DNA of 64,000 nt from Candidatus Saccharimonadota bacterium (GTDB lineage: Bacteria; Patescibacteriota; Saccharimonadia; Saccharimonadales; Saccharimonadaceae), in the NCBI GenBank assembly GCA_015999875.1, contig JAECRG010000002.1, positions 1 through 64,000 of the forward strand, given 5' to 3'. This document shows, piece after piece, positions 42,713 through 48,507 of the stretch (positions are counted from its first letter, which is position 1; every line of letters starts with the position of its first letter). The notes beneath the pieces are model-generated. The model was given only the letters and a program-made list of their open reading frames with translations, had not been told where the DNA came from and did no database searches. A program made the position numbers and the translations under genes.

Positions 42713-43639
42713 ATGAAAGAACGTGCATCTCCCTTGAATCCTGCTATAAACGAGAACGGTACATATCGTCTGACAAATGTAGAAACATTTGTGATAGATG
42801 ACCCTTTCGACGCGCGAAATACCTGGAATCCCGATATTGTTGCGGATTTCGAAGCGCCAGCTACTGACACGTCTGCGACGCGTGAAATGGGTGCTGCTGC
42901 TATGAAAATACACGACACAGCTCCGTCGGAGCAAGAGGGTCGTCATGATAATGACGGCGAACACATCACTCCTATAGCTGAATTTGGTGACGCATCAGAT
43001 ATTGATGGTGATACCACTTCAACGATCGAATCTCCCGAGGCTGTTGATGAAACAGAAGATGTGCCTGTATATGAAGAGCTCGTACGGAAACTTGAAAATC
43101 TGCGACCGATGTATGGTGATATATACAGGACGGCGCTTGCGCAATTTCCGGAAATTGAGACTCTCAAGGGGTTACGTCAGTTTAAAACAAACGAGTCTTC
43201 AGAAAGCTCGTCTGGAGGATGGAAAGACGAGTCAACTGGCGCGGTGTATCCTCAGATAATCATGGGGGAGGGTAGAGTTCTTGATATCCAGAAACGACGT
43301 TGGGCTGCGCGACTCGGATTAGACGCCGAGTGGAGTCAGGAGGAGATATCACGTGCTCCTGATGATTTCTGGAGGCTCTATACATTTGCGCATGAAGTAG
43401 GGCATGCAATTCAGTGGGACAAGAATTTCGAGAGTGTTTTTGGTCCGATTGAAAGAATAGAGGGAAGCGAGGATCTTGCCTATAGAGACTACAAAAAGTA
43501 CGTTAACTCAGATGCCGAGACTAATGCAGACTATATCGCTATGTTGCTCGTCTCGCACTCTGAAGTAGGAAAGAGCTTTAAGGCTCCAGGGCCGTCACAC
43601 GCACCTTATGAGTGGCGTAAATGGGTGAAAGAACTCTAA
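42713..43639 (+). CDS. HEVGH zinc metallopeptidase-like protein
   Basis: A 308-residue soluble protein. The first 120 residues are acidic and low-complexity. The C-terminal half contains FAHEVGHAIQWDKNF (HEXXH zinc site) near residue 227 and, about 40 residues later, DAETNADYIAMLLV, whose Glu/Asp may supply the third zinc ligand as in gluzincin-like proteins. No signal peptide, so its surface role is doubtful despite the neighbours. Family not recognised. The gene has a near-consensus promoter with the start codon 8 bases after the -10. rplU follows with a separate promoter. Confidence 0.65.
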   Translation: MKERASPLNPAINENGTYRLTNVETFVIDDPFDARNTWNPDIVADFEAPATDTSATREMGAAAMKIHDTAPSEQEGRHDNDGEHITPIAEFGDASDIDGDTTSTIESPEAVDETEDVPVYEELVRKLENLRPMYGDIYRTALAQFPEIETLKGLRQFKTNESSESSSGGWKDESTGAVYPQIIMGEGRVLDIQKRRWAARLGLDAEWSQEEISRAPDDFWRLYTFAHEVGHAIQWDKNFESVFGPIERIEGSEDLAYRDYKKYVNSDAETNADYIAMLLVSHSEVGKSFKAPGPSHAPYEWRKWVKEL

Positions 43640-43709: not shown

Positions 43710-44021
43710 ATGACAAAGAAAGCAGTCATTCGCGTAGGCGGTAAACAGTTTATCGTTCGTGAAAAAGAGACCCTCCTGGTGGACCTCCTCCCGGAAGGAA
43801 CTAAAGAGCTCAAGACAGATGCGCTCCTCGTCATCGATGGTGATAACACAACTGTCGGTACGCCAACTGTTAAGGGTGTAGTAGTTACTGCAAAAGTAAC
43901 TGAGCCTGAAGTAAAAGGTGAAAAAATTCGCATAATTCGCTATAAGGCGAAGAAGCGTGTAGACACCCGAACTGGCCACCGCCAGAAATATAGCAAAGTG
44001 GAGATCGTGACGATCAAATAA
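43710..44021 (+). CDS. rplU: 50S ribosomal protein L21 (bL21)
   Basis: A 103-residue 23S rRNA-binding protein. VIRVGGKQFIVREKETLLVD is the N-terminal signature, GTPTVKGVVVTAKV the central strand, and GEKIRIIRYKAKKRVDTRTG then HRQKYSKVEI the C-terminal RNA-binding loop. Normally followed by rpmA (bL27); here rpmA is absent and a strong terminator follows. Part of its 3' coding sequence (about 43912-43962) is duplicated in a 22-codon ORF at 45064, 1.1 kb downstream. Confidence 0.97.
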   Translation: MTKKAVIRVGGKQFIVREKETLLVDLLPEGTKELKTDALLVIDGDNTTVGTPTVKGVVVTAKVTEPEVKGEKIRIIRYKAKKRVDTRTGHRQKYSKVEIVTIK

Positions 44022-44076: not shown

Positions 44077-45000
44077 ATGAGCGAGAAGAGACGGATAAAA
44101 GCAAATGAGTTGGATGTTCCGGCTGGTGAATATATTCCAGGCCACCTGGGCTCGATGCAAGATGTGCTTTTTGGAGCACTTGATCAAGGTGTGATGACGC
44201 AACGTACGTTACAGGAAGCTGCAGAAGCCGGGAAAGAGACTCTAGCCAAATATAGTAAGCACGAAATGCCGTGGATAGTATATGCAGATATTCAACCAGA
44301 TACGTGTATACAGCATAATCAGGAATATACTCCGCTGGAGCCACATCTACGGTATCCGACAAATATCTATGGTGAAATAATTGGCCTAGACGTAGATCAG
44401 CACCCAGATGGTCGCACGATGCTCTATGCGCAGGTAGAGGGTATGGCTGTGGGTCAGTATGAACAGTATATTGTACCGATTGCGTATGCGGGTGATAGTC
44501 AGCTAGACCGGAGTAGAGTAATGGACATGCCAGTGCTGACGCGAGACTCCTATGAGGGGCGAGTATACAAGAAAGAGCTTGCTAGGGCTGTAGCTTTTGC
44601 GGAATTTGTAGGTGAGAGCGTGCGCAGCGGGTATGACGTAGCAGAGTATCTGAGTGAGAGATTACAATCAGCTAAAAAAAGTGGAATCGACCAGTACACG
44701 ATGAGTCTTAACCTGATGTTTGAGGATATGTTCGGTGCAGGATGTCCTTTTTTGGTCAATCTACATGACTGCTGGGTGCTTAGGGAATATAATCATGAAT
44801 CCGACGAGAGTGAAGGTGTTTTTGAGCATATGGTTGACGAGCAGGCGCGGATAGTGAGGCTTAACTTAACTCGAACCTCGGGTACTGATCTGAAAATTGA
44901 ATGGGTGGCGGAGCTTGAGGACGGTGACCAGGTTGTCAGTTTTGACTCTGATTTCGCAGGGAATATATCCTTTTTGAGAAGCGATATCCACGAGGATTAG
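44077..45000 (+). CDS. Soluble protein, unknown
   Basis: A 307-residue mixed alpha/beta protein, not recognised. Segments of note: ELDVPAGEYIPGHLG near the start, YADIQPDTCIQHNQEY, a strand-rich middle (YGEIIGLDVDQHPDGRTMLYAQVEG), a helix with SGYDVAEYLSERLQSAKKSG, and a C-terminal strand set ending SFDSDFAGNISFL. No signal peptide or membrane helix. The start at 44077 follows GAGGA; a longer frame to 44026 would run through the rplU terminator. It sits between rplU and the RCC1 gene and may read through from the rplU promoter. Confidence 0.55.
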   Translation: MSEKRRIKANELDVPAGEYIPGHLGSMQDVLFGALDQGVMTQRTLQEAAEAGKETLAKYSKHEMPWIVYADIQPDTCIQHNQEYTPLEPHLRYPTNIYGEIIGLDVDQHPDGRTMLYAQVEGMAVGQYEQYIVPIAYAGDSQLDRSRVMDMPVLTRDSYEGRVYKKELARAVAFAEFVGESVRSGYDVAEYLSERLQSAKKSGIDQYTMSLNLMFEDMFGAGCPFLVNLHDCWVLREYNHESDESEGVFEHMVDEQARIVRLNLTRTSGTDLKIEWVAELEDGDQVVSFDSDFAGNISFLRSDIHED

Positions 45001-45026
45001 GTGCATTGATTGTGCTTATGTTGTGA

Positions 45027-45032
45027 TATACT
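45027..45032 (+). promoter_or_regulatory. -10 box upstream of the bL21-derived mini-ORF
   Basis: TATACT. A TTGATT at 45006-45011 gives a 15-base spacer, shorter than ideal. Confidence 0.4.
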
Positions 45033-45063
45033 AGTACTCACTAAAGAGGGCTGTAATACACAC

Positions 45064-45132
45064 ATGACAACTGTAAAAGGTGAAAAGATTCGCATAATTC
45101 GCTACAAAGCGAAGAGGCGCATGGGGGTATGA
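45064..45132 (+). CDS. 22-codon ORF copied from the bL21 gene, overlapping the RCC1 gene start
   Basis: The ORF reads MTT then VKGEKIRIIRYKAKRR, ending MGV. The central 16 residues match bL21 (VKGEKIRIIRYKAKKR) with one Lys to Arg change; the DNA differences from rplU in this stretch are otherwise synonymous. The stop TGA overlaps the ATG of the RCC1 gene (ATGA at 45129-45132). The peptide is very basic. A ttcgc / gcgaa hairpin is shared with rplU, so an RNA-level function is an alternative. AAAGAGGG lies about 13 bases before the ATG. Probably a leader ORF coupling translation; its purpose is unknown. Confidence 0.6.
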   Translation: MTTVKGEKIRIIRYKAKRRMGV

Positions 45133-47657
45133 GCCTAGCCTTTTATAAGAATAGATGGCGACCTACATGGTTGTTTGGTGTAATGACACTTGTGTTTGTA
45201 CTCGTGGCAAGCCCTATAGTTGGTACGCTGGCGCGGCCTGCAAATGCTGCTATTGGTCAGAATCCACTGGACGGAGTGACGCAGGTATCGAACCGCTGTG
45301 CTGTTGCCAGTAGCAAAGCCTACTGCTGGGGGTATAATTACAGTGGCCAACTCGGCAACGGTACTAATATCAATAGTGGTAGTCCTGTTGCTGTCGACAC
45401 CTCTGGTGTCCTGGCTGGCAAGACTGTCACACAGGTAATGTCTAACGGCGTTAGCGCTTGTGCTGTTGCCAGTAGCAAAGCCTACTGCTGGGGGTATAAT
45501 GATAACGGAATTCTCGGCAACGGCACTAACGTCGACAGCAACGTACCTGTTGCTGTCGACACCTCTGGTGTCCTGGCTGGCAAGACTGTCACGCAGGTGC
45601 AACTAACTTATGATGCTGCGTGTGCTCTCGCCGATGGCAAGGTCTATTGCTGGGGCGCTAATGGTAATTCCGGACTTCTCGGCAATGGCACCAATACCGA
45701 CAGCAACGTACCTGTCGCTGTCGACACCTCTGGTGTCCTGGCTGGCAAGACTGTCACACAGATAGCAATAAATGGGGATACGTCAGCCGGGGGTCCACGT
45801 GCGTGTGCTCTCGCCGATGGCAAGGTCTATTGCTGGGGCGCTAATGGTAATTCCGGACTTCTCGGCAATGGCACCAATACCGACAGCAACGTACCTGTCG
45901 CTGTCGACACCTCTGGTGTCCTGGCTGGCAAGACTGTCACACAAATAGATCTAGGCGAGTATACTACTTGTGCTGTCGCCGATGGCAAAGCCTATTGCTG
46001 GGGCACCAATGGTAGTGGCCAACTCGGCAACGGCACTAACACTGACAGCAACGTACCTGTCGCTGTCGACACCTCTGGTGTCCTGGCTGGCAAAACTGTT
46101 ACGCAAATACGAGTTACCTATAGCACTACTTGTGCTATCACCGATGGCAAAGCCTACTGCTGGGGTGGGAATGGTAGTGGCCAACTCGGCAATGGCACCA
46201 ATACCGACAGCAACGTACCTGTCGCTGTCGACACCTCTGGTGTCCTGGCTGGCAAGACTGTCACACAAATAGATCTAGGCGAGTATACTACTTGTGCTGT
46301 CGCCGATGGCAAAGCCTATTGCTGGGGCACCAATGGTAGTGGCCAACTCGGCAACGGCACTAACACTGACAGCAACGTACCTGTCGCTGTCGACACCTCT
46401 GGTGTCCTGGCTGGCAAAACTGTTACGCAGACTACATTGCGAGGGGGTATAGTTTGCGCTCTCGCCGACAGCAAGTCGTACTGTTGGGGTCCGGCCATGC
46501 TGGGTAATGGCGCAGAAGAAGGCTCCAACGTTCCTGTGCTCGTCGGTTTTGAGTATTCAATTCCTGAGATATCCTCACTTTCTCGCGACAAGGTCGGAAC
46601 AAATATATCCGGTACGCAGACTACTATACGCGGACTGGATTTTGCCGGAAGTGTAACTGTTGAAATTGGTGGTAGACAGGCGACCGTTGTTTACTCAAAT
46701 AGTACTGCAATAGGTATTGAAATACCTGTGTCACCAACGCCAGGTGCGGTGGATGTCAAGGTCACTAACGGTAATGGCCAGTTTGTTATTCTGCATAATG
46801 GCTTTACGTATGAGACACCAAGTCCTCGTGTTGTGAATGGTGTAGCTTTTGGCGAAGAAGCTGGAAAGAAGATTATGACGATCACTGGCACTGGTTTAGT
46901 GGGTGCGGAAGATCCTACGGAGTTTCAGCAGGCGATGATCCCGCCATTTAAATCATTTGTTTCACTCAACGGTGTGGCGCTTGACTTTTGCACGCATGGC
47001 ACAGGCTTTACGCAAGCTGATTTGGAGGGTTATAACGTACCTGGATCAACCGATGATCCTACTTGCTACTATCTGTTCAACTCTAGTGTGCAGCCTGTTA
47101 TTACACCTACAGCAGCGAAGATATGGCTTGCAGACAGTTTTGATATTACTGCACCGGGTAGTGTCATCGTGAACGGATCCGCTCCTTTTCTATTCAACCA
47201 GCCTGGCGGTGGAGAATCGGATGACGATGCAACAGTTGTCGTGAACGGACAGTCTCTCGCTAACACGCCGGAGATTGCAAAACGATCAACATTTAGCGGC
47301 ACGGCCGAGCCGGGTGCACAAGTAACCGTCACGGTTCACTCGGACCCGGTGTCATGTACTGGTATAGCTGATGCTCAGGGCAGATGGTCGTGTACGTTGC
47401 CGACTGACTTGGTGCCCGGGCAGCATACAGTGTATGTTCACGTGGTGAATCCTGATTCTACCACTATTGACCTTGGTCCTTATTCTGTGACTGTTGCAGG
47501 TGATAGTCCGACGACACTCTCGGCACCAAATACCGGTATGCAGCGAATACGCATATTTTCGAGTCCCCAGGTGTTATTGGTGTTTGGTGGGGCTATACTT
47601 TCTTTGGGTGTGCTGATATATGCGCTGTATCGTCGAGTGAATGATTTGAAGTCGTGA
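45129..47657 (+). CDS. RCC1-repeat surface protein with IPT/TIG and Ig-like domains
   Basis: An 842-residue exported protein. Signal peptide at 1-40 (VMTLVFVLVASPIVGTLARPANA). Residues about 45-465 hold eight RCC1-type repeats (YCWGxNxxGQLGNGTN), each with a Cys pair spaced C-x8-C, probably a disulfide per blade. An IPT/TIG domain (about 478-565), further beta domains and an Ig-like segment (about 715-795) follow. The C-terminus has APNTG, a hydrophobic helix and YRRVNDLKS, a sorting-signal-like layout. The start overlaps the stop of the bL21-derived mini-ORF and has no ideal Shine-Dalgarno. Likely an adhesive propeller; ligand unknown. Confidence 0.85.
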   Translation: MSLAFYKNRWRPTWLFGVMTLVFVLVASPIVGTLARPANAAIGQNPLDGVTQVSNRCAVASSKAYCWGYNYSGQLGNGTNINSGSPVAVDTSGVLAGKTVTQVMSNGVSACAVASSKAYCWGYNDNGILGNGTNVDSNVPVAVDTSGVLAGKTVTQVQLTYDAACALADGKVYCWGANGNSGLLGNGTNTDSNVPVAVDTSGVLAGKTVTQIAINGDTSAGGPRACALADGKVYCWGANGNSGLLGNGTNTDSNVPVAVDTSGVLAGKTVTQIDLGEYTTCAVADGKAYCWGTNGSGQLGNGTNTDSNVPVAVDTSGVLAGKTVTQIRVTYSTTCAITDGKAYCWGGNGSGQLGNGTNTDSNVPVAVDTSGVLAGKTVTQIDLGEYTTCAVADGKAYCWGTNGSGQLGNGTNTDSNVPVAVDTSGVLAGKTVTQTTLRGGIVCALADSKSYCWGPAMLGNGAEEGSNVPVLVGFEYSIPEISSLSRDKVGTNISGTQTTIRGLDFAGSVTVEIGGRQATVVYSNSTAIGIEIPVSPTPGAVDVKVTNGNGQFVILHNGFTYETPSPRVVNGVAFGEEAGKKIMTITGTGLVGAEDPTEFQQAMIPPFKSFVSLNGVALDFCTHGTGFTQADLEGYNVPGSTDDPTCYYLFNSSVQPVITPTAAKIWLADSFDITAPGSVIVNGSAPFLFNQPGGGESDDDATVVVNGQSLANTPEIAKRSTFSGTAEPGAQVTVTVHSDPVSCTGIADAQGRWSCTLPTDLVPGQHTVYVHVVNPDSTTIDLGPYSVTVAGDSPTTLSAPNTGMQRIRIFSSPQVLLVFGGAILSLGVLIYALYRRVNDLKS
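45288..46530 (+). repeat. RCC1 repeat array with long perfect direct repeats
   Basis: Eight coding repeats. 45861-46105 is identical to 46185-46429 (245 bases, offset 324), and 45618-45760 is identical to 45801-45943 (143 bases, offset 183). Such identity implies recent duplication or gene conversion and allows copy-number change by recombination. Confidence 0.95.
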
Positions 47658-47708
47658 GCTTGTCGAGTACCACCTAGCAGGCTTCTGTTCAGAGTAACAT
47701 GCTCGTGC

Positions 47709-47714
47709 TATACT
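47709..47714 (+). promoter_or_regulatory. -10 box of parAB
   Basis: TATACT, 28 bases before the parA ATG. An ATG at 47723 opens a 7-codon ORF whose stop overlaps the parA start (ATGA), and AGGGG lies about 9 bases before parA. Confidence 0.45.
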
Positions 47715-47742
47715 AGGGTTAAATGGCTAGGGGAAACAAAAA

Positions 47743-48507
47743 ATGACGACTGTAATATCTGTTACGAATCAAAAGGGTGGTGTCGGCAAAACCACGAGCG
47801 CGGTAAATATCGCGTATTATTTGGCTAAGTCTGGCAAAAAAACACTTTTGGTCGACTTTGATCCACAGGGCAATGCTACAAGTGGCCTCGGTGTCGATAA
47901 AGAGACGCTTGATGGCACGATGAGTGAAGTTATGCTTGAGACGAAACTGCTCAAAGATGTAATTATCAAGACAGATTTCAGTAATTTATTTCTTGCCCCG
48001 AGTACACCGCATCTTGCTAACACCGAGGCGGAACTTGCTCAAGCCAATCGTCGCTTCACCCGGCTACGCAACGCAATCGACAATACACCGAACTTCGATT
48101 ATGTGATCATCGATAGTCCGCCAAGCTTGAGTTTATTGACAGTCAATGGGTTGATTGCAGCTCGCTACGTACTGCTTCCAGTGCAGGCAGAATTCTATGC
48201 ACTTGAAGGTTTGGGGCAGCTGCTAGAAACTATGAAGCTGATTCGTAAAAATATGAACCCCACACTCGATCTCATCGGGGTACTACCGACGATGGTTGAT
48301 AAGCGGACAAGCTTGAGTACACAGGTGCATGAAGAGATCAAAAAACATTTCCCTGGACGGGTTTTCAAGACAACGATACCGCGTAATATTCGACTAGCAG
48401 AAGCTCCAAGTCACGGTTTGCCAATAGGCGAATACGATAAGTGGAGCAAGGGTGCGCGCGCCTATAAGGCCGTAACGAAAGAGATGGAGGAACGAATCGA
48501 TGGTTAA
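47743..48507 (+). CDS. parA: Chromosome partitioning ATPase ParA (Soj)
   Basis: A 254-residue Walker-type ATPase. Deviant Walker A NQKGGVGKTTSAVN (about 8-21), Walker A' LLVDFDPQGNATSGLG, and Walker B FDYVIIDSPPSLSLLTVN. Full-length Soj-type without the N-terminal HTH of plasmid ParA. It moves ParB-bound origins. parB overlaps its end by 8 bases, the usual chromosomal parAB order. No parS (TGTTTCACGTGAAACA-like) site was found by eye in the window. Confidence 0.96.
   Translation: MTTVISVTNQKGGVGKTTSAVNIAYYLAKSGKKTLLVDFDPQGNATSGLGVDKETLDGTMSEVMLETKLLKDVIIKTDFSNLFLAPSTPHLANTEAELAQANRRFTRLRNAIDNTPNFDYVIIDSPPSLSLLTVNGLIAARYVLLPVQAEFYALEGLGQLLETMKLIRKNMNPTLDLIGVLPTMVDKRTSLSTQVHEEIKKHFPGRVFKTTIPRNIRLAEAPSHGLPIGEYDKWSKGARAYKAVTKEMEERIDG

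Follow-up and report, generated by a model that had tools for sequence, protein, structure and literature searches.

The leader of rplU, the gene of ribosomal protein bL21, constitutes a ribosomal-protein leader RNA family of Rfam. Short leader ORFs are a second point of reference for the locus described here: they have a start site of their own, and their stop codon overlaps the start of the next gene in an ATGA, which couples the translation of both. A third is given by the microhomology-bordered junctions of tandem duplication or illegitimate recombination that bring a gene under a new promoter, for which the nearest paper found describes an engineered system with 9-bp borders that was selected by gene activation (PMC11111574). 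In the window (the whole analyzed stretch of 64,000 nucleotides from a Candidatus Saccharimonadota bacterium, contig JAECRG010000002.1, positions 1–64,000), a locus downstream of rplU resembles all three. It involves bL21, its short ORF possesses a start site and terminates across the start codon of the next gene, and at its joint a 4-nt microhomology occurs along with the remains of a truncated gene and a resident promoter that now stands before another gene. This locus is the scar of a recombination that probably captured a promoter, a real event of an ordinary kind, of which there is one case so far.

Composition of the short ORF and its neighborhood

The complete rplU of the window (43710–44021, on the forward strand like all features from there to parA; 103 aa; Pfam PF00829, E 8e-22) is followed by a hypothetical, fast-evolving gene without Pfam match, here called geneX (44077–45000). 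Upstream of rplU, a hypothetical protein (42713–43639), likewise without Pfam match, contains FAHEVGHAIQW with a zinc-protease-like HExxH motif. The short ORF extends over 22 codons from the ATG at 45064 to the TGA at 45132 and encodes MTTVKGEKIRIIRYKAKRRMGV, which consists of parA codons 1–4, bL21 codons 68–83 (the first of these codons being common to both genes) and a terminal MGV. Its ATGA end forms the overlap with the ORF of an RCC1-type surface protein (45129–47657). According to Pfam and to sequence features, this protein has an apparent signal peptide, RCC1 repeats, TIG and Ig-like domains, an APNTG motif and a C-terminal hydrophobic segment. At 45600–46420, its RCC1 repeats look near-identical in DNA, for example in the stretches from 45940 and 46264, which suggests a recent internal duplication or homogenization.

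The rplU remnant within the ORF (45073–45120) is identical to rplU codons 68–83 (43911–43958) at 43 of 48 bases, and BLAST aligns the two with 91% identity over 47 nt at an E-value of 4e-13, so that the match is not due to chance. The bL21 origin proposed in an earlier note on this DNA was thus right, as were its description of the differences (four synonymous ones and one Lys-to-Arg replacement, AAG to AGG) and its observation that the ORF has its own ATG, an upstream TATACT (45027–45032) and an ATGA overlap with the RCC1 gene. What had been overlooked is that the first 13 nt of the ORF and the promoter before it are those of parA. The parA start ATGACAACTGTAA (MTTV; 45064–45076) is also found at the beginning of parA in the congeners and of the complete parA in the window. 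The two pieces, each of which matches a separate gene, meet at one point, where both parA and rplU have the sequence GTAA; a microhomology of 4 nt can be a matter of chance. Further downstream in the ORF follow a TTCGC-N6-GCGAA inverted repeat inherited from the rplU codons (45098–45113) and a GAGG (45114–45117) that results from the AAG-to-AGG change and might act as a weak Shine-Dalgarno sequence.

The first parA promoter with its 5′ UTR, PparA1 (45020–45063), carries the extended −10 element TGATATACT at 45024–45032 as well as GAGGG at 45046–45050, and now precedes the chimeric ORF instead of parA. The complete parA (47743–48507; Pfam AAA_31/CbiA; ~95–96% amino acid identity to two congeners, G001 and G003) is located 2.7 kb downstream of the short ORF behind a different promoter of the parA type, PparA2 (47698–47742; TGCTATACTAG at 47706–47716, plus AGGGG).

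The rplU–parA slot in related genomes

Three other genomes of the genus, G001, G002 and G003, served as congeners for comparison, and all have the arrangement rplU-geneX-parA. According to the alignment, TGATATACTAG (TGCTATACTAG in G001), GAGGG and ATGAC(A/G)AC(T/A)GT lie directly before and into parA in all three, and PparA1 aligns with exactly this upstream DNA. Its local alignment scores are 72 with G002 and 61 with G003, compared to a median of 23 over all compared parA upstream regions. PparA2 is best matched by the parA upstream regions of the Saccharibacteria loci L074 and L103. With G001, however, PparA2 scores 41 and PparA1 39, which is about equal, so PparA2 need not be foreign. The two promoters of the window are not alike, as their mutual score of 22 is close to the median of the whole set of parA upstream regions. 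The geneX product has a distant relative in the equivalent slot of G002 (31% identity) and barely detectable similarity to the counterparts in G001 and G003, yet the ParA proteins are ~95% identical.

Across Saccharibacteria, rplU and parA are neighbors, with parA lying downstream at 67 of 80 loci. Because these loci had been fetched via rplU, the set is enriched for the rplU–parA position; the comparison also included RCC1 matches of 61 whole genomes. Three genomes (L074, L100 and L112) have an RCC1-type surface gene between rplU and parA, and L123 has another surface protein gene there; in Saccharibacteria, the slot that separates rplU from parA is thus variable and exchanges surface genes. 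Full-length matches of the window RCC1 protein reach 575 bits with L112, 567 with L074 and 413 with L100, and the best other match 347 bits. L112 and L074 are its closest full-length relatives among all collected loci (39–41% identity over 860–938 aligned positions). The bL21 segment lies 258 nt before the start of the surface gene in L074, with the 3′ end of rplU and a repeat resembling a terminator in the interval, versus 56 nt in the window. In L088 (5449–10250; GW2011_GWC2_44_17), rplU is followed by two large ORFs, side by side, that resemble the window surface protein in its C-terminal region (~47% identity).

Among the genomes searched, the chimera itself occurs only in the window genome. 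Absence of the ORF from all relatives had been named in the earlier note as evidence that would speak against its reading, and this absence is what the searches returned. On the DNA level, a second bL21 copy before such a gene occurs in none of the 294 other genomes of the family (295 including the window genome). A peptide search of 28 genomes retrieved only rplU and the window's own ORF, with a bL21 leader upstream of an RCC1 gene in none of the 27 relatives. Nor was the chimeric pattern found in a collection of genome contigs, which may not contain the record of the window itself, and the paralogous RCC1 regions of the window genome (contig C3) have different starts and no such leader. In another genome (L064; G163:C4:687654–687676), a TTCGC-N6-GCGAA hairpin followed by GAGGAG is located shortly before a small gene of the KGG type and is 96% identical to the window element over 23 nt. 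It sits before another gene, and we regard the match as a probable coincidence.

Origin of the joint

We attribute the ORF, with a probability of roughly three in four, to illegitimate recombination between two rplU–parA arrangements plus a loss of ~200 nt before the RCC1 gene. One parent would have been rplU-geneX-PparA1-parA, as in the congeners, and the other rplU-RCC1-PparA2-parA, as in several other Saccharibacteria. A break at codon 4 in the parA of the former would have been joined to codon 68 of the latter's rplU via the GTAA microhomology. Simultaneously or later, ~200 nt comprising the remaining part of this rplU with its terminator and the promoter region that the RCC1 gene had of its own would have been lost, so that 16 codons of bL21 were left in fusion with the start of RCC1. 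The homology of the pieces, the occurrence of both parent arrangements in relatives and the lack of the joint in the other genomes searched are observed, and from these we infer the sequence of steps and a contribution of incoming DNA. Natural transformation was shown in the cultivated Saccharibacterium S. epibionticum (PMC10633639), which makes incoming DNA plausible and its involvement in the window conceivable. The second arrangement was not found in any genome within the genus, so the direct parent has not been seen, and the low identity of the nearest RCC1 relatives counts against the model. An assembly error at the joint may also be considered, but the divergence at 5 of 48 bases and the 4-nt overlap speak against it.

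The main rival concerns the route. A tandem duplication within the genome from rplU codon 68 to parA codon 4, after which RCC1 and a new promoter replaced the second geneX copy, would leave an identical joint. The order of parA start and rplU segment is exactly that expected from such an event, and microhomology-bordered, gene-activating tandem duplications are known in bacteria (PMC11111574). However, the bL21 copy shows 90% identity, whereas the two parA promoters do not resemble each other. A recent simple duplication therefore fails to explain the right half of the locus, and we consider this route unlikely.

The earlier note had taken the almost exclusively synonymous divergence from bL21 as a hint that the 22-aa peptide is selected, as a leader that could couple RCC1 translation or regulate the gene. 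The parA start site in front, the open frame and the ATGA overlap would fit such a role, although an in-frame joint is expected by chance in one of three cases. The five differences were polarized using 80 related rplU genes and the three congeners. At segment codons 11 and 12, the remnant has the codons that prevail in the related rplU genes (TAC in 66 of 80 and AAA in 58 of 80, respectively), whereas the window rplU does not; among the congeners, G002 also has AAA at codon 12, but G001 and G003 have AAG. The CGC of the remnant at codon 16 is common to all three congeners, and the larger set is split between CGC (39) and CGT (40). Codon 5 is ambiguous in polarity. The AGG at codon 15 is present in none of the 80 genes. 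Of the four synonymous differences, two or three are thus more readily explained by substitutions in rplU, a gene expected to be under purifying selection, and the remnant's only clearly derived change is the non-synonymous Lys-to-Arg replacement. The remnant differs by five changes from the window rplU and by five from that of G002, and these two differ from each other by eight, as expected of an older or sister rplU allele. Changes assignable to the remnant amount to one or two in a single genome, which is too few for dN/dS. As a general warning, synonymous-only differences between a gene and a fragment of it need not mean that the fragment is under selection, since the gene of origin keeps changing.

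Folding predictions bear on the same interpretation. The RCC1 AUG lies inside a small predicted hairpin that leader translation could open, and the stretch 45064–45150 folds better than its shuffles (z −2.9), but the longer stretch 45040–45170 only slightly so (z −1.8). Since the ORF occurs in one genome only and the polarized changes show no sign of purifying selection, selection for the peptide is not supported, and we regard a selected leader as quite unlikely. That the fragment acts as RNA, with a bL21-binding site or the inverted repeat controlling the downstream gene, is extremely improbable: the repeat is kept in both window copies, but it is not conserved as the earlier note had assumed (10 of 80 related rplU genes have it and two of the three congeners lack it), Rfam yielded no family, neither at the gathering threshold nor with E-values up to 1, and the fragment is bL21 coding sequence, not a known ribosomal-protein leader.

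Probable expression of the locus and comparison with known systems

The parA promoter probably drives the surface gene via the scar. PparA1 would now transcribe the RCC1 gene, with a transcript start near 45040 as predicted from the TATACT, and parA would be read from PparA2. Ribosomes would probably begin at the old parA start site, read the 22 codons and stop in the ATGA, which could help initiation at RCC1. The RCC1 start is preceded by GAGG 11 nt upstream and by an immediately adjacent GGGGG; neither is well placed, which makes initiation by ribosomes finishing the leader plausible. Coupling of leader translation to RCC1 is, judging from this arrangement, a plausible by-product of the joint, and the peptide itself is most likely without function. 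It is very unlikely that a new leader peptide was recruited from a ribosomal-protein fragment to couple surface-protein translation to the parA promoter; if true, surface-protein output would follow a chromosome-partition promoter. In either case, the locus illustrates that a single joint can place a surface gene behind a housekeeping promoter.

Compared with the L21 leader, the fragment in the window derives from inside the rplU coding region and has no match in Rfam. The leader differs from ATGA-overlap coupling ORFs in being a fusion of two gene fragments that is not conserved and is known from sequence alone. From the known junctions of tandem duplication or illegitimate recombination, the locus differs in that its joint formed in a natural genome and was followed by a deletion, and in that it seems to descend from two arrangements of a single locus.
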